From Lautropia sp. (GTDB taxonomy: Bacteria > Pseudomonadota > Gammaproteobacteria > Burkholderiales > Burkholderiaceae_E): a stretch of 37,216 bases of DNA. Made by a program: the position numbers and the translations under genes. Below, piece after piece: positions 15,819-25,195 of this stretch. Positions within the stretch are counted from its first letter, which is position 1, and each line of letters begins with the position of its first letter. Location: the NCBI GenBank assembly GCA_030532895.1, contig JAUNKF010000033.1, positions 1 to 37,216 on the forward strand, written 5' to 3'. The notes under the pieces were generated by a model. The model was not told the DNA's origin, made no database searches, and saw only the letters and a list, made by a program, of their open reading frames with translations.

Positions 15819-16058
15819 TTGGTGTTCAGGGTTTCGTACTCGCCTGTGGCTGCTTTTCTTCTGTCGGCCGCTTTTGCTTTGCTGTGCTTGTTTTTTATTC
15901 TTTATACGAGATCCTATGCGTGGCCTTATGGCCTGTTCTTGTTTGGGGTAATTCTTTCCTATTCGAGAAGAAAGGGCTTTCTGTTCGACTCGTCTGATCG
16001 AAGTTTGAATTTGGGGTGGGCTTTTCTTCTCTTGTCTTTATCGCTTTCGTGTTTTTAG
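15819..16058 (+). CDS. Small hypothetical membrane protein, 79 aa
   Basis: Starts at TTG 15819 or GTG 15822, with GGGGGAG (15804-15810) about 8 bases before. Three hydrophobic segments follow: YSPVAAFLLSAAFALLCLFFIL, WPYGLFLFGVILSY and LGWAFLLLSLSLSCF at the very C-terminus. It is T-rich like the rest of the island. Its last 4 bases overlap the convergent rtcR stop. I do not recognise it. Non-ATG start and small size keep confidence modest. Confidence 0.4.
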   Translation: MVFRVSYSPVAAFLLSAAFALLCLFFILYTRSYAWPYGLFLFGVILSYSRRKGFLFDSSDRSLNLGWAFLLLSLSLSCF

Positions 16059-17800
16059 ATGCCCCGAACCTGCTGCCAGCTCAGCCCAAACTTCATCAGA
16101 TACTTTCGCAGCCGGTCGCTGTCGTTGACGGCACGGCGTTGGGTGCGGGATTGGGAGAAAAGGCGGCGCCCGGCTTCGGCCAGCGTGTTGCTTTGCTGGC
16201 AGACGTGGAGGACGGTTTCCAATTGCAGGCGATCGAAGAGGTCGAGGTTGGCGAGTGTTTCCTCGGACAGCAGTGAGGCCAACACGGAGGAAGCTGGCCG
16301 GTTATTGATTTCTTCGGATCGCGATGAGGCTGGCATGGAGACGGGCCACTTGGCGCTCTCGTCGCCGGGCTGCTGCCACAACCACCGAAGCCGGCTGATC
16401 TCCGCCTCGACCAGCGTCGTCGTGATGCGGCCGCCTTCGGCGAGTGTGGCAAGCCGGGTGATGCTGGCTGACAGGTCCCGGAAATTGCCTCGCCAGAGCG
16501 CTTCATCGCTTTGTGCAAAATCCAGATAGCGTGTCTTGGCTTCCCGATTGAAGTGTGCGGCCTTGCCACCCTCGGTGGGCATGCGGGCGAGCAGGTGGTC
16601 GATGTTCGGCTCGATGTCTTCGGGGCGTTCGGCCAGGCCCGGCAGGTGATATGTCCACAGGTTGATACGGGCAAACAGGTCTTCCCGGAATCGGCCTGCC
16701 AGCACTTCTGTTCGCAAGTCACGATTGGTGCCGGCCATCAGCTGAAAATCACTATAAGCCTCCTGATCACTGCCGAGCGGGTAGAAGCGTTTTTCTTCGA
16801 CGGCTTTCAGCAGCATCGCTTGCTCGTCCAGCCCGAGTTCGCCGATTTCATCCAGAAAGAGAATGCCCTGATGGGCGCTGCGAAGCAGGCCGGCACGTTC
16901 GGTGGCAGCGCCAGTGAAGGCGCCTTTCTTGTGGCCGAATAGGGTGGCGCTGGCCGTGTCACCGCGAAGGGTGGCGCAATTCACTTCGATGAAAGCGCCC
17001 TTGATCTGGTGGCGAGCCTTCTTCAGCTCAAAAATCCGCCGGGCCAGATGCGATTTGCCAGCGCCCGTGGGGCCAGAAAGCAAAATGGGCGCCTGCGAGC
17101 GGATGGCCACTTGCTCGATCTCGTCGATCAGCTGGTTGAAGCGCAGGTTTCGCGTGGGGATCCCGTTTTTCAGATACTCCTGCGCCTGCTGTCGTGCGTG
17201 CTCGAAGCGCTGGGCCAATCCGTCGTAACGTGAGAGATCCAGATCGATCAGCGTGTAGGTGCCGACGGATGACCAGCGCCTGTGTCGGGATATCTTGTCT
17301 GCCTGAGCTTCGTCGTGTTCGTCGTGCAGGTCTGCCTCATCTTGTGCTGTGTTGATGTTCGATGGCAGGCGCTTGCGAGGCGGCGAGCTTTGCAGCAGCA
17401 CGCCAGGAATGAATCGGGCCTCCACCATCAGAAAGAGGCAGATTTGGGCAACGTGGGTGCCGGTGGTGATGTGTACCCAATAATCTTCGTGCTCGGTGTC
17501 GAAGTGCTGGCGTTTGGCCCAGTCGTAGAGGTTGGCATACACCTCGCCAAAGTCCCAGGGATCATCAAGGGGCATCGGGATCGGGTTCACCACGGTGTTG
17601 GGTGACATCTCGGCGATGTCGGCCACGACGGTATTCAGCAGGGCTTCGTACTTGGGGGCGTAGAAGAGTTCCAGCCGGTCGATGGGGTGTGCCTGCTGAA
17701 CCATCGACAGGGTGGGGCGCCATTTTTTCCAGCGCCCGGCGCGCTGACCGCTGTCGAGCTGGGTGCCGAGATAGCCGATGATGACGGTGCGTTTGTTCAT
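16055..17800 (-). CDS. rtcR: RtcR, CARF-domain sigma-54 activator of the rtc operon
   Basis: A 581-aa protein. Residues about 1-180 are the RtcR sensor (MNKRTVIIGYLGTQLD, HITTGTHVAQICLFLMVEA), a CARF-type domain. In this family it responds to damaged tRNA or RNA ends. The AAA+ domain has Walker A GPTGAGKS (243-250), the sigma-54-contacting GAFTGA (about 293-298), Walker B GILFLDEIGEL and the arginine-rich second region of homology. The C-terminus (QTRRAVNDSDRLRKYL and LSWQQV) is the DNA-binding region. It is divergent from the sigma-54 promoter at 17978 and should activate the RNA-repair unit there. It is intact and of normal length. Confidence 0.96.
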   Translation of the reverse strand: MNKRTVIIGYLGTQLDSGQRAGRWKKWRPTLSMVQQAHPIDRLELFYAPKYEALLNTVVADIAEMSPNTVVNPIPMPLDDPWDFGEVYANLYDWAKRQHFDTEHEDYWVHITTGTHVAQICLFLMVEARFIPGVLLQSSPPRKRLPSNINTAQDEADLHDEHDEAQADKISRHRRWSSVGTYTLIDLDLSRYDGLAQRFEHARQQAQEYLKNGIPTRNLRFNQLIDEIEQVAIRSQAPILLSGPTGAGKSHLARRIFELKKARHQIKGAFIEVNCATLRGDTASATLFGHKKGAFTGAATERAGLLRSAHQGILFLDEIGELGLDEQAMLLKAVEEKRFYPLGSDQEAYSDFQLMAGTNRDLRTEVLAGRFREDLFARINLWTYHLPGLAERPEDIEPNIDHLLARMPTEGGKAAHFNREAKTRYLDFAQSDEALWRGNFRDLSASITRLATLAEGGRITTTLVEAEISRLRWLWQQPGDESAKWPVSMPASSRSEEINNRPASSVLASLLSEETLANLDLFDRLQLETVLHVCQQSNTLAEAGRRLFSQSRTQRRAVNDSDRLRKYLMKFGLSWQQVRGI

Positions 17801-17977: not shown

Positions 17978-17993
17978 TGGCACGGGATTTGCT
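17978..17993 (+). promoter_or_regulatory. Sigma-54 promoter of the rtc RNA/slipin/rtcB unit
   Basis: TGGCACGGGATTTGCT is a full match to the sigma-54 -24/-12 consensus (TGGCAC, five bases, TTGCT). It faces right, about 180 bases from divergent rtcR, leaving space for RtcR sites upstream; the AT-rich imperfect palindrome TTAATGTTTTCAAAATGTC near 17905-17923 is one candidate. Transcription should start near 18005, just before the first structured RNA module. Confidence 0.92.
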
Positions 17994-18009: not shown

Positions 18010-18169
18010 CCATGACTGCCTGGCTGACAGCAACGCTTGCTGCCACGCCACCCGGGCAGAAAGCTTGGGGTTTGGGCAAAGAGGCCCGCCCCAGCGGTGC
18101 CGGTATCCGTCGTCTGCTTCTTGTTGGGGCTGCGATGTGGATGGCCGCCATGCCGCCAGGCAGTGATGG
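18010..18169 (+). ncRNA. Structured RNA module 1 with paired ends
   Basis: About 160 nt beginning only 17 bases past the sigma-54 -12 element. CCATGACTGCCTGGC (18010-18024) pairs with GCCAGGCAGTGATGG (18155-18169): 10 continuous bp, one G-G mismatch, then 4 bp. Inside are a perfect CAGCAA/TTGCTG hairpin (18028-18042) and a long hairpin TGGGG..GGGC / GCCC..CCCCA (18066-18093), with GCAGA/TCTGC (18056-18060 and 18113-18117) enclosing the latter. A frame crosses it (from 18012) but its product has no protein character. Paired ends closing a branched body are the layout of Y RNAs. The RNA nature is inferred from folding and position; no family match is claimed. Confidence 0.6.
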
Positions 18170-18245
18170 AAGAGGATGGTGTTCCGCCTGGCTTGTGAAA
18201 ACGGGCCGGAAGGCAGGGCAAAGATCAGTCCGTAAAAAACGGCTG

Positions 18246-18371
18246 GTTGCTGTCTGGCAACACCATCGGGTGGCTCCGCTCGGGTTGGAGCAACGTCCTG
18301 ATAAGGCGTCTGGCGGGTTCGATTCCCGCCTTGGTCAAACCGGTCGCAAGACCGGTTGTACTGGCAGCAAC
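18246..18371 (+). ncRNA. Structured RNA module 2 with tRNA-mimic domain (YrlA/Y RNA-like)
   Basis: About 126 nt. Ends pair as GTTGCTGTC (18246-18254) with GGCAGCAAC (18363-18371), 9 bp with one G-U. The body is a tRNA mimic: D-like arm GCTCC/GGAGC (18273-18277 and 18287-18291) with GG in its loop, anticodon arm ACGTC/GGCGT (18293-18297 and 18305-18309) with loop CTGATAA (anticodon GAU), and T arm GCGGG/CCCGC (18313-18317 and 18325-18329) with loop TTCGATT. No acceptor stem pairs; a CACC/GGTG hairpin (18261-18272) and a GCAA-capped 8-bp hairpin (18338-18357) flank it. Upstream is a small hairpin (18226-18245), and TTTTTT at 18413-18418 may mark an end. Rtc-linked Y RNAs (YrlA) are known to carry such tRNA-like domains. 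Confidence 0.75.
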
Positions 18372-18450
18372 GCTGGCTGGACAGGCAGGGATGGGTCGCC
18401 ACGCAAAGCATCTTTTTTGAAGGTGCAGCGCGTGAGGCCGATACCGGCCA

Positions 18451-18796: not shown

Positions 18797-19135
18797 ATGA
18801 AAACCTACGGCTGGAAAAGCATTCAAGTCAGCAAGCATGAGCGCGCACTGCTGGTGCGAAATGGCGACCTGGAGCGTCTGCTGCCGGCTGGCCGGCATCG
18901 GGTGACGGCTTGGGGGGATGAGTTGAGCGTGCTTCGCCTGTCTGGGGTTGAATCCGCTTTTGATCATCCGTTGGCCGAGCAGGTTCTGGATGCCGTGGCC
19001 AATGATGCCTCGGGCATGGCGGGCTGGTCGCAGCATCTGTTCGCGGTGAAGCTGGCGGATGATGAGGTGGGCCTGGTGATTGAAGATGCTTTGCTGACGG
19101 CCATCTTGCCGCCGGGCACGCGCCGGCTTTTCTGA
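18797..19135 (+). CDS. Slipin (SPFH/stomatin-like), N-terminal part before a frameshift
   Basis: ATG 18797 has AAGGA 7 bases upstream. The 112-aa frame contains two copies of a recurring slipin pre-domain module: ALLVRNGDLERLLPAGRHRV near residue 18 and GLVIEDALLTAILPPGTRRLF near residue 92. It ends at TGA 19133 in CTTTTCTGAAG. Slipping back one base at TTTTC, or one missing T, joins it to the frame LKAPRPLKVERLS and the SPFH domain downstream, giving a 389-aa protein of normal slipin size. Slipins are membrane-associated scaffold proteins that accompany rtcB in several rtc operons (known context). The break is either a real mutation, a sequencing error or a programmed frameshift. Confidence 0.8.
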   Translation: MKTYGWKSIQVSKHERALLVRNGDLERLLPAGRHRVTAWGDELSVLRLSGVESAFDHPLAEQVLDAVANDASGMAGWSQHLFAVKLADDEVGLVIEDALLTAILPPGTRRLF

Positions 19136-19155
19136 AGGCGCCGCGGCCGCTCAAG

Positions 19156-19965
19156 GTGGAACGCTTGTCGCTCGCGGCCGGTGCGCAGATCGAGCCGGCG
19201 CTGGTGGCAAGGCTGCAAGCCTTGATGGCCCGTCAGCCGGCTGAGTTGGCATCTTCTGTCTTGTTGGCGCAGGTGCCTCAGCATCATGCGGGCCTGCTGT
19301 GGATCGACGGTGTGTTGCAACCGTTGCTGCCAACAGGCGTGCATGCCTTCTGGCGTCATGGTCGCGATGTGTCGGTGACGGTGGTGGATTTGCGCACGCA
19401 GACGCTGGAGGTGAGCGGACAGGAAATCCTGTCACGTGACAAGGTGAGTCTGCGCCTCAATCTTTCGGCCGGCTGGCGCTATCAGGATGTGACCCGTGCC
19501 TTCTCACAATGGCCGCAGCCGGCCGATCAGGTCTATCGTGAGCTGCAATTTGCGTTGCGCGCGGTGGTGGGCGGCCAGACGCTGGATGCGCTGCTGTCGG
19601 ACAAGTCGCAGATGGATATGGCGCTGATGGCGCAGGTGGCACCCCGGCTGGCCCAGCATGGCATTGTGCTCGAAAACGTCGGGGTGAAGGACATCATCCT
19701 GCCGGGTGAAATGCGCAGCTTGCTCGCCAAGGTGGTGGAGGCTGAAAAGTTTGCCCAGGCCAACCTGATCCGGCGCCGTGAAGAAACAGCGGCCACCCGT
19801 TCGCTGTTGAACACGGCCAAGGTGATGGAAGACAACCCGGTGGCGCTTCGGATGAAGGAGCTGGAAACGCTGGAGCGTGTGGCCGAGCGTATCGACCGCA
19901 TTTCGGTGGTGGGCGGGCTGGATCAGGTGTTGGATGGCCTGGTGAAGCTTCGGCCGGCAAGATGA
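19156..19965 (+). CDS. Slipin (SPFH/stomatin-like), main part after the frameshift
   Basis: 269 aa from the first ATG, but the reading probably continues from 19132 without its own start. A third module copy LLWIDGVLQPLLPTGVHAFW comes first, then the SPFH/band-7 domain: VDLRTQTLEVSGQEILSRDKVSLRLNLSAGWR, then DALLSDKSQMDMAL and VGVKDIILPGEMR, which are standard stomatin segments. A coiled-coil helix with AEKFAQANLIRRREETAATRS closes it. No ribosome site precedes 19156, supporting expression as one protein with the upstream part. It lies between the structured RNAs and rtcB, so it should be induced with RNA repair. The membrane role is inferred from the family. Confidence 0.85.
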   Translation: MERLSLAAGAQIEPALVARLQALMARQPAELASSVLLAQVPQHHAGLLWIDGVLQPLLPTGVHAFWRHGRDVSVTVVDLRTQTLEVSGQEILSRDKVSLRLNLSAGWRYQDVTRAFSQWPQPADQVYRELQFALRAVVGGQTLDALLSDKSQMDMALMAQVAPRLAQHGIVLENVGVKDIILPGEMRSLLAKVVEAEKFAQANLIRRREETAATRSLLNTAKVMEDNPVALRMKELETLERVAERIDRISVVGGLDQVLDGLVKLRPAR

Positions 19966-20227: not shown

Positions 20228-21448
20228 ATGGATACGTATGATGTGATCAGTCAGCCGGACGCCGTGCCGGTAAAAATGTGGACGAAGGGCGTGCCGGTGG
20301 AGGATGAAGCCCGCAAGCAACTGGAAAACGTGGCCCGTCTGCCAATCGTGTTCAAGCATGTGGCGGCCATGCCAGATGTGCATTACGGTATCGGCGCAAC
20401 CGTGGGGTCGGTGATTCCCACCTTCAAGGCCATCATTCCGGCCGCGGTGGGGGTGGATATCGGCTGCGGTATGATCGCCTGCAAGACGACGTTGCGTGCG
20501 CAGGATCTGCCAGACAACCTCGGGCCGTTGCGTGCCGAGATCGAGAAGGCCGTGCCGCACGGGTTGTCGCCCCGTCGTTGGGGGCGAGACAAAGGCTCGT
20601 GGGAAACCCCGCCGGCTGAAACCGATGCCGCCTGGTCGGGCCTGGTGGATGAGTTCAAGCAGATTTGCGACAAATACCCGCGCCTGGAAAAAACCAACAA
20701 CTACACGCAGTTGGGTACGCTGGGTACGGGCAATCATTTCATCGAGATCTGTCTGGATCAGGATGCGGTGGTGTGGATCATGCTGCACAGCGGTTCACGC
20801 GGGGTGGGTAATGCCATCGGTACGCACTTCATCGAGCTGGCCAAAAAGGATGCCGAGCAGCATCAGCGAAACCTGCCGGATAGGGATCTGGCCTATTTTG
20901 AAGAGGGTAGCCGCTACTTTGGTGATTATGTGCAGGCCGTGGGCTGGGCGCAGCGTTTTGCCCGTGCCAACCGCGAGGTGATGATGCAGCGGGTGATCAG
21001 CGCGATGCGACGGATCATCACGAAGCCTTTTGAAACGCATCTGGAAGCTGTCAACTGTCACCACAACTATGTGCAGCAGGAGCGGCATTTTGGTGAGGAC
21101 GTGTTCGTGACCCGAAAGGGCGCCGTGTCGGCCCGAGAAGGTGAGTTGGGCATCATCCCCGGCAGCATGGGCGCGCGCAGTTACATCGTGCGCGGTAAAG
21201 GCAACCCGGAGAGCTTCATGAGTTGCAGCCACGGTGCCGGCCGACGGATGAGCCGCAGCCAGGCCAAGAAGCGCTTCACGGTGGCTGACCAGATCAAGGC
21301 CACCGAAGGGGTGGAGTGCCGAAAGGATGCCGATGTGATCGACGAGATCCCGATGGCCTACAAGGACATCGACGCCGTGATGGCCGCCCAGCGCGATCTG
21401 GTGGATGTGGTTTACACGTTGAAGCAGGTGGTGTGTGTGAAGGGGTGA
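20228..21448 (+). CDS. rtcB: RNA-splicing ligase RtcB
   Basis: A 406-aa protein (E. coli RtcB has 408). VGVDIGCGM (D77, C80) and HSGSRGVGN supply manganese ligands, NCHHNYV further histidines, and SCSHGAGRRMSRSQA contains the histidine that takes GMP. RtcB joins RNA 2',3'-cyclic or 3'-phosphate ends to 5'-hydroxyl ends using GTP. It repairs tRNA and rRNA cleaved by ribotoxins. AGGA lies about 10 bases before ATG 20228. It is the enzyme of the sigma-54/RtcR-controlled unit, downstream of slipin and the structured RNAs. Neither rtcA (cyclase) nor archease is in the window. Intact. Confidence 0.97.
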   Translation: MDTYDVISQPDAVPVKMWTKGVPVEDEARKQLENVARLPIVFKHVAAMPDVHYGIGATVGSVIPTFKAIIPAAVGVDIGCGMIACKTTLRAQDLPDNLGPLRAEIEKAVPHGLSPRRWGRDKGSWETPPAETDAAWSGLVDEFKQICDKYPRLEKTNNYTQLGTLGTGNHFIEICLDQDAVVWIMLHSGSRGVGNAIGTHFIELAKKDAEQHQRNLPDRDLAYFEEGSRYFGDYVQAVGWAQRFARANREVMMQRVISAMRRIITKPFETHLEAVNCHHNYVQQERHFGEDVFVTRKGAVSAREGELGIIPGSMGARSYIVRGKGNPESFMSCSHGAGRRMSRSQAKKRFTVADQIKATEGVECRKDADVIDEIPMAYKDIDAVMAAQRDLVDVVYTLKQVVCVKG

Positions 21449-21558: not shown

Positions 21559-21819
21559 ATGCAAACCACGCTCACTCGTAAAGGCCAAGTCACCATTCCG
21601 CAACATATTCGCCTGGCGTTGGGGCTGCTGCCAGGGGCCAAGGTGGAGTTTTCTGTCCGGGAGGACGGAGACGTGGTGTTGCGGAAAGTGGCCGCTGAGG
21701 AAAATTCAGACACCCCATTGGCGTCTGATCGTTTTGAGGCGGTTCGAGGAAAGGCCGATATCAAGTGGCGCACCGATGCCCTGATGGCGCTGCTACGTGG
21801 AGAGGCGGATGCTGGTTGA
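21559..21819 (+). CDS. vapB: AbrB/VapB-type antitoxin
   Basis: 86 aa from ATG 21559; the in-frame upstream extension to 21517 is not needed. The N-terminus MQTTLTRKGQVTIPQHIRLALGLLPGAKVEF is a textbook swapped-hairpin AbrB/MazE DNA-binding domain. The C-terminal 40 residues (FEAVRGKADIKWRTDALMALLRGE) form the toxin-binding tail. It overlaps the PIN toxin gene by 11 bases. It should repress its own promoter through the palindrome at 21478-21504. The pair lies between rtcB and the MoxR gene on the same strand. Confidence 0.9.
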   Translation: MQTTLTRKGQVTIPQHIRLALGLLPGAKVEFSVREDGDVVLRKVAAEENSDTPLASDRFEAVRGKADIKWRTDALMALLRGEADAG

Positions 21820-22225
21820 TACCAACGTCCTGATTGATGTGCTTGAGAATGACCCGGTCTGGGCGGATTGGTCGATCCGGCAATTGGGTCATCAGTCCCG
21901 CGTGCATCAGCTCTGCATCAACCCGGTGATTTATGCCGAGCTGTCATTGACCTTTTCGAGCGTTGAAGCGCTGGATCAGGTGCTTGAGCAGATGCAGTTG
22001 GAGATGCGCCAGATTTCCAGGGATGCCTTGTTTCTGGCGGGCAAGGCTTTCGTTCAGTGTCGTCGCCAAGGTGGCACACGAAACAACGTTTTGGCGGATT
22101 TCTTCATCGGCGCACAGGCTGCGGTGGAAGGCCGGCCGATTCTCACGCGCGATGCGCGGCGTTATCGTGCGTATTTTCCAACCGTCAGACTGGTGACGCC
22201 CGAGTCCGGCCGAGCGGCACCCTGA
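21809..22225 (+). CDS. vapC: VapC-type PIN-domain ribonuclease toxin
   Basis: 138 aa from ATG 21809; GGAGAGG lies just upstream inside the antitoxin gene. The PIN-domain acidic residues are visible: LVDTNVLIDVLE (first Asp), INPVIYAELSL (Glu), NNVLADFFIGAQA (Asp) and LTRDARRYRAYFP (last Asp/Arg box). VapC toxins cut specific tRNAs or rRNA, and the antitoxin blocks them. Since rtcB repairs just such breaks, its place beside the rtc genes is notable, but a random insertion is equally possible. Intact. Confidence 0.9.
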   Translation: MLVDTNVLIDVLENDPVWADWSIRQLGHQSRVHQLCINPVIYAELSLTFSSVEALDQVLEQMQLEMRQISRDALFLAGKAFVQCRRQGGTRNNVLADFFIGAQAAVEGRPILTRDARRYRAYFPTVRLVTPESGRAAP

Positions 22226-22250
22226 ACCTCTGTTGCAAAAAAAACACAGC

Positions 22251-23315
22251 ATGCAAGCCACCATCTCCCTCACGCCCTCCCAACTTGCCGAGTTTCTTCT
22301 CAACGTTGCCACCGTGCGTCCCGTGTTCATCTGGGGGCCGCCGGGTATTGGCAAGTCGGCCTTGGTCACGCAGTTTGCCGAGAGCGTGGGGCTGCCCTGC
22401 GTGTCGCTGCTGGGCAGCCAGCTCGCACCGGAAGACCTGATGGGCGTGCCGCAAATCCGCGATGGCATCACGCGCTTCTGCCCGCCAGCCCTGATCGCCC
22501 GTGAGGCGCCTTATTGCCTGTTTCTGGATGAGCTGAATGCCTGCTCGCAAGATGTGCAGAAGGCTTTTTACAGCCTGATCCACGACCGGCGGGTGGGGGA
22601 GTACGAGCTGCCAGAAGGCTCCATCGTGATCGGCGCGGGCAACCGGGCGCAGGATTCGGCCATCGTCAAGCCGATGTCCTCGGCGCTGATGAACCGCATG
22701 GTGCACGTGCATCTGCGCGTGTCGGCGAGTGAATGGTTGCAGTGGGCCACCTCGGCCGGTCTGCATCCGCTCGTCATCGATTATCTGACGCAGCGTCCCG
22801 ACCACCTCTGGAGCCAGCCGCCACGGCATGAAGAGCCGTTTTCCACGCCGCGTGCCTGGCACATGTTGAGCGATGCGTTGCACGGCTTTGGTGAAGACTT
22901 GTCGCCCGTGATGATGGAGGCGCTTGCAAGCGGTTGCCTCACACCACAGCATGCGGCGCAGTTTCGGGCCTTTGGCAAGCTCGCGGGTGATCGACACCGG
23001 CTCGATGCCATCATCAAGGGGGATGCCCGCTGGCCGCATGAGCCGGCTGATCGGGATCTGCTGTATTTTCTGGTGCAGGCGTTCCGGGCGCGATTGCTGA
23101 AGGTGCTTCCCCATGAGAAGAATCTGGTCAGCAGCGAGGAGCAGGCTTTCGTTCATCGCAGCAAGGCGATGTTGAAGGAGATTGCCCAGATCAGCCTGGA
23201 GATGGCGCAGATCGTGGTGGCCGATGAAGGTGGCGAGGTGTTGCCGGCCTGGTACATGGTGGAGGTTGTGCGAGACCTGCCGCGCTTGGTCGAGAAAAAA
23301 ACCGAGGTGAAGTGA
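22251..23315 (+). CDS. MoxR-type AAA+ ATPase
   Basis: 354 aa from ATG 22251 (a TTG at 22233 is in frame but less likely). Walker A is GPPGIGKS (residues 29-36); Walker B is YCLFLDELNACSQ; the sensor-like IVIGAGNRAQD and SSALMNRMVHVHL follow. A helical lid with IVVADEGGEVLPAWY closes the protein. MoxR ATPases act as chaperones for partner proteins with VWA domains. The next gene is such a partner, with stop and start overlapping by one base (TGATG at 23313-23317), so the two are translationally coupled. It could be cotranscribed with rtcB, but the vapBC pair lies between. Confidence 0.93.
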   Translation: MQATISLTPSQLAEFLLNVATVRPVFIWGPPGIGKSALVTQFAESVGLPCVSLLGSQLAPEDLMGVPQIRDGITRFCPPALIAREAPYCLFLDELNACSQDVQKAFYSLIHDRRVGEYELPEGSIVIGAGNRAQDSAIVKPMSSALMNRMVHVHLRVSASEWLQWATSAGLHPLVIDYLTQRPDHLWSQPPRHEEPFSTPRAWHMLSDALHGFGEDLSPVMMEALASGCLTPQHAAQFRAFGKLAGDRHRLDAIIKGDARWPHEPADRDLLYFLVQAFRARLLKVLPHEKNLVSSEEQAFVHRSKAMLKEIAQISLEMAQIVVADEGGEVLPAWYMVEVVRDLPRLVEKKTEVK

Positions 23316-25195
23316 TGAGCCGGGGCAGCAGCAAGGCCAAGGCTTCCAACCCGGCATCTCAGCAGCATCATGAAGGGCGGCTGCTACTGATGGCGCATCC
23401 GGTTTTCCAGCCCTTGGATCGTCGGGTGAACTGGATTCGCAGCACGGCGGTATACCGGGCTGGTTTTCCGTGGCCGTCGGACGATTGGCCTGCCGATGCC
23501 TGGCTGTGGTTGTCACGTGACGAATACCTGCATGCACACCCGAAACGCCTGGCCGAACCGAGCGCCTGGGCGTACGTGATGGCGCGGGGGCTGCTTTGCC
23601 ACGCGTTGGAACTCTGGCAGGCGGATCGCGGCAACTGGGCCGCCTGGAGCGCGGCCTGCGATGTGGTCACAGCGCGCTTTCTGCACAGCATCAAGTTTCA
23701 TCGTGGCCCATCCGGCATGCGTCTGCCAGAAGATTTGCCGGCCTGGGATGAAGAGCGCTGGTATCGAAAATTTTGTGAGGACGGCATCCCTGCCTGGGCG
23801 GCGGCGTTGTCGCTCGCCGGCCCTGGTCGCAGCACGATGCAACCACCGGCAGAATGGGACAGGATTCCGTCCGATCAGTATCGGCAGACATGGGCCGAAG
23901 CCTTTGCCGGGGGCATTGCCGAATCCGTCAAGCAGGCGGTGGAGGTGGTGGCGGGTTTGCGCACGTCTTTAGGGGGCGAACTGGATGCTTCATCTCAGGC
24001 GGGCCAGGCAGGAGGGCGCAACGTACTGCGAGCCGTTACCCGGCAAGCACGAGACTGGTTCATCAGCAGTTTCCCCTTGTTGGGCGCAATGGTCGCCTCT
24101 TTCGAGCTGGTGGAAAACGCCGAGTTGTGCCGAAGAGAAGAGATCCTCGTGGCGGCCGTCGATGAAAGTCTGCGCACCATTTACCTGAACCCGGCCGCAG
24201 GGCTGAACGAGGAAGAAAGCCGCTTCGTCATCGCGCACGAGGTGCTGCATGTGGCGCTTAGGCACCTGCCGCGCCGCCAGGGGCGCGAGCCGTGGTTGTG
24301 GAATGTGGCTTGCGATTTCGTCATCAATGATTGGCTGATTCAGATGCAGGTGGGCACACCGCCGGCCTTGGGGCTACTTTTTGATGAGAGCCTGCGTGGC
24401 CTGTCGGCCGAAGAGGTTTATGATCGCATCGCGCGTGATCTTCGTCGGATGCGCAAACTGCGCACGCTGGCGGGCGGTCAGTGCGACATGCTGGAGCGCC
24501 GGCTTGGCACTGGGGGCGTGCCTTTCACCGATCTGGATGCTTTCTGCCGTGAGCAGCTGGGCAAGGGCTTGCTCCTGCATCAGCAGCAGGGGCGCGGGTT
24601 GTTGCCGGCCGGGCTGATCGAAGAGATCAACGCGCTGTTGCAGCCGCCCATTCCGTGGGAGGTGAAGCTCGCGCGCTGGTTCGATCATCATTTTCCGCCG
24701 TTGGAGACGCGGCGAACCTATACGCGGCTATCACGGCGCCAGTCGGCCACGCCTGACATTCCGCGCCCGCATCTGGGCGTGGATGAAAGCCGGCGTGAAG
24801 GGCGGACTTTTGGCGTGGTGCTTGATACCTCCGGCTCGATGTCGCGGCAGATGCTGGCTCGTGCGCTGGGCGCCATTGCGAGCTATGCCGAGGCGAAGGA
24901 AGTCTCGGCCGTGCGTGTGGTTTTTTGCGATGCGCGCGCGCATGATGCTGGCTACCTGGCGGCACAGGATATCGCGGGGCGGGTGCGTGTGCATGGGCGG
25001 GGTGGTACCGTGCTGCAACCGGGCATCGACTTGTTGCAGGGGGCGGTGGATTTCCCGCCGGATGGGCCAATCCTGATCATCACCGACGGTGCATGTGATG
25101 TGCTCCAGGTTCGTCGCAGTCATGCCTTCCTGATGCCGCCGGGGGCGCGCTTGCCTTTCTCGCCGCGAGGGGACGTGTTCCGCATGACGGATTAG
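23315..25195 (+). CDS. VWA-like protein with putative metallopeptidase domain (DUF2201-type)
   Basis: 626 aa from ATG 23315, overlapping the MoxR stop. After a 230-residue N-terminal helical region comes a putative zinc peptidase segment: EESRFVIAHEVLHVALRHL, with H308-E-x-x-H312. The C-terminal part is a VWA-like domain with the MIDAS motif DTSGSMS (from D504) and later ILIITDGACD. This domain order fits the DUF2201 family that travels with MoxR ATPases. It likely acts in a MoxR-driven complex on a protein or nucleic-acid substrate; the substrate is unknown. Location after rtcB suggests a stress-linked role, an inference only. Confidence 0.9.
   Translation: MSRGSSKAKASNPASQQHHEGRLLLMAHPVFQPLDRRVNWIRSTAVYRAGFPWPSDDWPADAWLWLSRDEYLHAHPKRLAEPSAWAYVMARGLLCHALELWQADRGNWAAWSAACDVVTARFLHSIKFHRGPSGMRLPEDLPAWDEERWYRKFCEDGIPAWAAALSLAGPGRSTMQPPAEWDRIPSDQYRQTWAEAFAGGIAESVKQAVEVVAGLRTSLGGELDASSQAGQAGGRNVLRAVTRQARDWFISSFPLLGAMVASFELVENAELCRREEILVAAVDESLRTIYLNPAAGLNEEESRFVIAHEVLHVALRHLPRRQGREPWLWNVACDFVINDWLIQMQVGTPPALGLLFDESLRGLSAEEVYDRIARDLRRMRKLRTLAGGQCDMLERRLGTGGVPFTDLDAFCREQLGKGLLLHQQQGRGLLPAGLIEEINALLQPPIPWEVKLARWFDHHFPPLETRRTYTRLSRRQSATPDIPRPHLGVDESRREGRTFGVVLDTSGSMSRQMLARALGAIASYAEAKEVSAVRVVFCDARAHDAGYLAAQDIAGRVRVHGRGGTVLQPGIDLLQGAVDFPPDGPILIITDGACDVLQVRRSHAFLMPPGARLPFSPRGDVFRMTD

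Follow-up and report, generated by a model that had tools for sequence, protein, structure and literature searches.

Among the closest described counterparts of the element reported here are elements of RNA-repair (rtc) operons and of tRNA operons. The YrlA-type Y RNA (Rfam RF02553) of rsr-yrlBA-rtcBA operons is a tRNA-mimicking RNA in an RNA-repair operon controlled by RtcR; a decoy role has been suggested for it, while RtcR has been reported to respond to damaged tRNA (PMC7790460). In Anabaena, the trn operon and TrcR regulon combine a tRNA operon with rtcB and a slipin gene, all controlled by the same regulator (PMC10272220); here the tRNA genes number 26 and lie on a megaplasmid, the loci are separate and the regulator is a repressor instead of RtcR. 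An SPFH gene has also been noted in the rtc locus of P. aeruginosa (PMC13086221, 2026). We analysed 37,216 nucleotides (nt) of DNA from Lautropia sp. (GenBank assembly GCA_030532895.1, contig JAUNKF010000033.1, positions 1 to 37,216 of the forward strand; this whole stretch is hereafter the window), in which an rtc operon with an SPFH (slipin-like) gene is preceded by a leader RNA containing a tRNA-like unit. The window holds, with near certainty, one copy of a conserved leader-RNA family. This family is apparently undescribed so far: it does not form a family of its own in Rfam, and no description was found in the literature searched on slipin/SPFH, RtcB, RtcR, Y RNA and RNA-repair operons, of which the sources covered a part.

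The earlier note on this DNA had claimed a tRNA-mimic RNA in the rtc operon leader at 18246..18371, with D-like, anticodon and T arms, surrounding hairpins and no acceptor stem. The three arms and both hairpins are present, and the mimicry is borne out by the ARAGORN call, the Rfam tRNA score and the covarying family described below. The elements of the unit and its surroundings are the following:

18264-18336, plus strand: tRNA-like unit, with an acceptor-like pairing (18264-18270/18330-18336) and D, anticodon and T arms (ARAGORN, Rfam, held-out model R3)
18273-18276/18288-18291, plus strand: D-like stem GCTC/GAGC (sequence)
18293-18297/18305-18309, plus strand: anticodon stem ACGTC/GGCGT, with the loop CTGATAA at 18298-18304 (sequence)
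18313-18329, plus strand: T arm GCGGG-TTCGATT-CCCGC (sequence)
18338-18357, plus strand: GCAA-capped hairpin of 8 base pairs, directly 3′ of the tRNA-like unit (fold)
18261-18264/18269-18272, plus strand: CACC/GGTG hairpin (sequence)
18240-18254 with 18363-18379, plus strand: outer helix enclosing the tRNA-like unit and the 3′ hairpin (minimum-energy fold)

A tRNA-Ile(gat) is called by ARAGORN at 18264-18337, and the unit scores 31.1 bits against the Rfam tRNA model (RF00005), above the threshold of 29; it is the weakest of 40 Rfam tRNA matches in its own genome, the other 39 scoring 50.1-77.6 bits. Its arms follow the canonical order (D, anticodon, T), and the anticodon arm is 17 nt long with a normal CTGATAA loop. 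The region 18236-18385 folds at -69.9 kcal/mol (z -3.31), an energy as low as which was reached by none of 200 shuffles. The minimum-energy structure disagrees with the centroid structure in the D region; both are closed by the outer helix, which in the former carries a bulge at 18370-18371. The claim of a missing acceptor stem stood only in part: an acceptor-like pairing of 18264-18270 with 18330-18336, competing with the CACC/GGTG hairpin, is possible at 6/7 positions, three of them G.U. CCA is not encoded in the window unit. Better acceptor stems are found in many relatives, and several relatives have a hairpin, recognised by eye, at the place equivalent to that of the GCAA-capped one. The feature is also longer than first proposed, with a probable 5′ module at 18054-18157. 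No second copy of the RNA was found by DNA search of the window's own genome.

A DNA search for the leader gave no match in 73 other genomes of the window's family, and relatives were therefore sought via proteins. RtcR yielded 20 loci in genome contigs, and 13 places in 12 genomes among 369 of the class (the window's own counted). The SPFH protein was found in nine plasmid records and its query had no match in phages, while an SPFH profile was positive in 23 of 398 genomes of the phylum and in 12 of 247 genomes of one order, one of these 12 being shared. Once four copies of the window locus and one duplicate had been discarded, the final set comprised 52 loci with an SPFH gene and 24 RtcR loci without one. 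The 52 loci come from Beta- and Gammaproteobacteria, from a second class within the window's phylum and from one Firmicute, with named carriers including Pseudoalteromonas (8/52 loci, reflecting uneven sampling), Photobacterium, Lampropedia, Burkholderia, Citrobacter, E. coli and the Firmicute Subdoligranulum; the remaining carriers belong to the window's phylum, some of them to another class, probably the Alphaproteobacteria.

A T arm, defined by 5/5 pairs and a TTCRANY loop at most 750 nt upstream of the SPFH gene, is present in 48/52 of these loci, as compared with 0/52 on the opposite strand and 34/10,400 mononucleotide shuffles. The four misses comprise three enterobacterial loci with 4/5 pairs and one locus at a contig end, where only 148 nt precede the gene. 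Among the 24 RtcR loci without an SPFH gene, two of which have less than 350 nt of sequence, one has a T arm; this locus, L026, precedes a TROVE gene (Pfam 23.6 bits; cut-off 23). No tRNA-like was found at the RtcR loci of the two other genomes of the window's family that carry rtcR. The association is furthermore retained where no rtcR or rtcB was found in flanks of about 1.5 kb (L062-L066, L068, L069, L054, L077-L079). In its distribution the leader RNA follows the SPFH gene and not rtcB or rtcR, a link that the earlier note does not make. Its T arms precede the first position with protein homology by 126-635 nt and, under a 4-of-5-pair rule with real tRNAs removed, number two in 41 loci, three in one, one in nine and none in one. 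At least two are hence present in 42/52 leaders, usually as a full cloverleaf and a reduced one.

For the analysis of complete units, five real tRNAs in L077-L079 were dropped before counting. The 94 T arms included 19 without a cloverleaf and 23 scoring below 13.5, leaving 52 complete cloverleaf units spread over 42 loci, of which 32 have a single unit and 10 have two; a typical leader has one or two tRNA-likes, with three in L053 and one in the window. The 52 units reduce to 47 distinct sequences, of which alignment A3 holds 45 (without L052 and unit A of L058) and A7 holds 44 (also without the window). Across the 45 units the four arms covary (0.623, versus 0.171 in shuffles and at most 0.153 when slid), with 232 cells changed on both sides versus 61 in shuffles and 91.9% of cells paired. 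The anticodon stem, too, covaries, with 97.3% of its cells paired. In the covariance check that the earlier note had proposed, the arms therefore prove to covary across related rtc loci, with compensatory changes present. U8, the GCUC/GAGC D stem, the GG of the D loop and the TTCRA T loop, i.e. the tRNA body and elbow, are kept in the units, and the elbow elements are among the best-conserved alignment columns.

The held-out model R3, built on 44 units of relatives with the window excluded, recovers the window unit at 18264-18336 (42.5 bits; E 3e-13) as its only match up to an E of 10 on both strands of the 37,216 bases. Applied to 34 further loci, R3 found untrained units in L048, L052, L056, L072 (two) and L073 (39.0-63.7 bits), partial matches confined to the T arm in L045, L074, L040, L042 and L044 (13.1-18.3 bits), and also a genuine tRNA-Pro in L045. 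Among the 24 RtcR loci without an SPFH gene, it matched in L026 (22.6 and 22.2 bits) and partially in L034 (17.6 bits) and L006 (13.0 bits).

As read by eye and from group folds, a typical leader runs from the promoter through a hairpin and a helix GGTGCR...YATRCC, which form the 5′ module, to the tRNA-like or tRNA-likes, further structured sequence and the SPFH start codon. The 5′ module is present in 34/52 loci (28 aligned and six clear by model) and is weak or not found elsewhere. Over 26 distinct sequences it covaries at 0.528, versus 0.200 in shuffles and at most 0.125 when slid; further pair types, at 23 versus 22.6 in shuffles, are not higher. The covariance model R2, trained with the window excluded, scores 17.2 bits at 18054-18157, corresponding to an E of 0.24 in 372 kb and to an E of 0.00058 and the top rank in the 901-nt leader. 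Over 398 genomes R2 found the module in nine, all of them among the 23 slipin-positive genomes and all from its training set, and missed it in 14/23, including the window's, which argues for its specificity, not its sensitivity. A permissive 5′-helix pattern, found in 31/52 loci versus 25/52 on the reverse strand and 504/2080 shuffles, had too high a background and was dropped in favour of this model. The remaining features of the locus are the following:

16055..17800, minus strand: rtcR, for the sigma-54 activator of RNA repair, transcribed away from the leader (Pfam RtcR PF06956, E 5.8e-70; NCBIfam NF038308, 787 bits, cut-off 650)
17978..17992, plus strand: -24/-12 promoter motif TGGCACGGGATTTGC, presumably of sigma-54 type (read from the sequence)
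18054..18157, plus strand: probable 5′ module, with hairpin P1 and helix P2 containing a conserved YAT stretch (model R2)
18158..18245, plus strand: linker, in which most relatives have an extra T arm (R1 and R3 scans)
18797..19135, plus strand: N-terminal part of the SPFH (slipin-like) gene, with a stop at its end (open reading frame, frames)
19156..19965, plus strand: SPFH part of the split gene, read in the -1 frame with respect to the N-terminal part (Pfam Band_7 PF01145, E 3.1e-22)
20228..21448, plus strand: rtcB RNA ligase (Pfam RtcB PF01139, E 4.8e-132)

The motif TGGCACGGGATTTGC resembles the sigma-54 consensus; a similar motif at a comparable position was found in 9/33 relatives scanned with one strict pattern, and in a few more by eye. 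No T arm is recognisable in the window linker at 18158..18245 (R1 at most 3.0 bits; R3 no match). The leader RNA is followed by the SPFH gene, rtcB, a PIN-domain gene and genes for a MoxR-type ATPase and a DUF2201 protein. The split of the SPFH gene (18797-19965) may reflect gene decay, a genuine frameshift or an error in sequencing. The PIN-domain gene at 21797-22225 is VapC-like (Pfam PIN 34.8 bits; NCBIfam VapC 33.1 bits, under the cut-off of 80) and lies between rtcB and the MoxR-type ATPase and DUF2201 pair at 22233-25195.

Several loci of relatives are arranged differently. In the Citrobacter locus L042 (1957-5910) the cassette consists of RtcR, a compact leader, slipin and an RlaP-like nucleotidyltransferase, with no adjacent rtcB, while in L040 (3740-4063) a compact leader recognisable by its T arm alone, slipin and RlaP-like genes lie between DUF3811 and lysC, with neither rtcR nor rtcB adjacent. 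The compact leader of the SPFH gene, recognisable by its T arm alone, occurs in 1624/5426 complete E. coli genomes, and no annotated feature lies beneath it among the 12 matches listed. In the Firmicute locus L045 (1004-3495) a gene for a WYL-domain protein, a weak match (25.3 bits; cut-off 21.8), is found upstream of the cassette, and no RtcR was found in the 9 kb covered. Genuine tRNA genes lie close to the leaders L077, L078, L079 and L049 (Asn and Lys; His and Leu).

The leader units resemble tRNA (RF00005) in their cloverleaf and D/T-loop elbow motifs and often exceed the tRNA threshold; they differ in a variable anticodon arm length, a fast-changing loop, mismatched acceptors and a CCA end encoded in 14/52. 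The anticodon arm is 17 nt long in 25 of the 52 units, 16 in 15, 15 in seven, 18 in three and 19 in two, and all seven acceptor pairs are formed in 12/52. A control set of real tRNAs, consisting of 24 class I tRNAs parsed from the best 30 of the 40 matches in the window's genome, has a 17-nt anticodon arm and CCA in 24/24, with seven acceptor pairs in 22 and six in two. The anticodon loop is strongly constrained in true tRNAs. Between close relatives of the leader units, 24.7% of loop positions differ (65/263, with gaps counted there only), versus 8.0% (197/2462) in the rest of the unit and 12.4% (1552/12,473) in the rest of the leader, and the loop is more divergent than the rest of the unit in 26/34 locus pairs and than the leader in 23/34. 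Substitutions in loops of equal length amount to 42/185, versus 122/1862 for the stems and T loop, and the loop is changed in 26/38 unit pairs. Judged by these sequence features, the leader units are not ordinary tRNAs.

The most variable part of the units is the loop that is cut by RNA-damaging enzymes, and the RNA may therefore be a decoy or a partner of the neighbouring protein. The reading that we favour, tentatively and with somewhat less than even confidence, is that the tRNA-likes, induced by damage, serve as tRNA decoys and work together with the SPFH protein. RtcR would turn the operon on as cleaved tRNAs accumulate, as reported for Salmonella, and the tRNA-likes would be excised, persist as stable RNAs and serve in trans as decoys that take no part in decoding. 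Nucleases of the anticodon loop would be occupied by these decoys or would cut them, and RtcB and RlaP would meanwhile repair the real tRNAs. The leader RNA would also act as a partner of the SPFH protein of the operon, since both almost always co-occur, even where neither rtcB nor rtcR is found nearby.

Several points weigh against this decoy reading. The production, processing and binding of the RNA are predicted from sequence, and the SPFH partnership is proposed from co-occurrence. The window copy is untypical: it has a single T arm, its 5′ module is weak and its SPFH gene is broken into two frames, for which reason the window locus may be decaying, and in E. coli and Citrobacter the T arm alone is recognisable. 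The 42/94 T arms set aside above lie in units rejected or unparsed by the parser, and the paired fractions of the alignment are inflated because this parser rewards stems in picking units. A normal 7-nt loop is found in 25/52 units, with T33 in 16 and A37 in 21 of these, and together with the 12/52 full acceptors this means that some units might still be usable tRNAs. Finally, the relative pairs in the loop comparison are not independent of each other, and the quick change of the anticodon loop may reflect lost constraint rather than an arms race.

The RNA could alternatively be a cis-acting damage sensor, in which the tRNA-likes stay in the mRNA leader and have their anticodon loops cleaved by a nuclease; this cleavage would alter SPFH expression or yield cyclic-phosphate ends feeding RtcR, and re-ligation by RtcB would reset the system. 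The location of the units ahead of the first gene at nearly every locus, the variability of the anticodon loop and the reported response of RtcR to damaged tRNA (PMC7790460) are consistent with such a sensor. However, the distance of the T arms from the protein homology places them away from the ribosome-binding site, and the leader is also present at loci for which flanks of about 1.5 kb yielded no rtcR or rtcB; we consider this explanation unlikely. As the earlier note also suggested, the RNA may be a substrate or decoy for RtcB or a feedback ligand for RtcR.

A structural role in an SPFH cage, in which the processed leader is a scaffold or cargo bound by the SPFH protein and decoy activity is secondary, is likewise a possibility to which we give a low weight. 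The leader would then be comparable with vault RNA or with the Y RNA bound to Ro60, and the tracking of the SPFH gene by the RNA would agree with it. The fold predicted for the SPFH protein consists of tandem β-repeats, an SPFH domain and a long helix. In fold searches, major vault protein (MVP) was among the matches, though not the best match (weaker or missing rows were not read as a different fold). In the predicted models compared, the operon protein partly resembles MVP and may share its order of β-repeats, SPFH shoulder and long cap helix. The operon protein is, however, shorter than MVP, and its sequence matches stomatin and not MVP, the likeness being one between predicted models. The bolder proposal, that the leader RNA and SPFH protein might form a bacterial vault-like ribonucleoprotein, i.e. 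a cytosolic MVP-like cage made upon tRNA damage with the tRNA-like RNA inside or on it, appears quite unlikely. If it were true, rtc operons would carry at one position either Ro60 (TROVE) with a Y RNA or an MVP-like protein with a tRNA-like RNA, two halves that the eukaryotic vault brings together (TEP1 TROVE, MVP and vault RNA). Binding of the RNA by the SPFH protein would turn the origin of the vault particle into an experimental question.

The tRNA-likes might also be processing signals, which draw RNase P and RNase Z so that the leader is trimmed and the 5′ end of the SPFH mRNA is set. The elbow elements, being among the best-conserved columns, would fit this role, and tRNAs within operons are known to be excised. 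Two to three tandem units, a covarying anticodon stem and loops that outpace their surroundings are nevertheless left unexplained, which makes this explanation improbable. Ordinary or back-up tRNA genes, replacing cleaved tRNAs, might be suspected from the many units that exceed the Rfam tRNA threshold (up to 66 bits) and from the 14 with a CCA end, but are highly improbable in view of anticodon arms that deviate from 17 nt (15, 16, 18 or 19) in 27/52 units, the loop changes in 26 of the 38 unit pairs, the mismatched acceptors and the outlying score of the window unit (31.1 bits against 50.1-77.6).

The earlier note had further suggested a Y RNA without a neighbouring Ro60, and its proposed check with the Rfam Y RNA model gave no match of YrlA (RF02553) to the window RNA up to an E of 1. 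Among 11 leader loci of relatives scanned, five have YrlA matches of 29.4-34.0 bits, below the threshold of 69. Genuine tandem tRNA genes score nearly alike (25.0-30.0 bits), so that the leader scores mean little beyond two consecutive tRNA shapes, and the idea that Y RNAs descended from tandem units, drawn from YrlA matches across the junction, was withdrawn on the same comparison. RNAs beside Ro60-type genes themselves score 37.9 bits (L026) and 32.7 bits (L006), and the threshold alone is therefore not decisive; judging from L026, it may miss Y RNAs. At about 700-830 on the minus strand of L026, a YrlA-like RNA stands before the TROVE gene, in which the order read by eye is T arm, hairpin, D arm and anticodon arm. 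The bacterial Ro60 query matched the comparison genomes G003, G238 and G313 and found nothing in 33 of 34 slipin-carrying genomes, including the window's, with a match only in G697; its reach is limited, as it missed G374, home of the L026 TROVE gene. This query replaced a Pfam TROVE scan (0/35) as proof of Ro60 absence, since the scan had missed the Ro60 of G003. The leader RNAs share with YrlA the tRNA mimicry and the RtcR-controlled RNA-repair operon, and differ from it in the D-anticodon-T order, one to three units, a 5′ module of their own, an SPFH neighbour rather than Ro60 and sub-threshold scores, by which sequence criteria they are not YrlA Y RNAs. Membership of the YrlA family is hardly credible, the like operon, the mimicry and the sub-threshold matches in 5/11 loci being outweighed by scores near those of genuine tandem tRNAs, a differing arm order and the 33/34 slipin-carrying genomes in which Ro60 was not found.

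The leader RNA adds a seemingly unnamed tRNA-mimicking RNA family to a stress-response operon across proteobacteria and at least one Firmicute. Its members are candidates for three questions, namely the function of the SPFH protein in rtc operons, the protection of bacterial tRNAs by decoys, and the way in which rtc operons read RNA damage. The variability of the anticodon loop, furthermore, would make the decoy idea testable for each nuclease.
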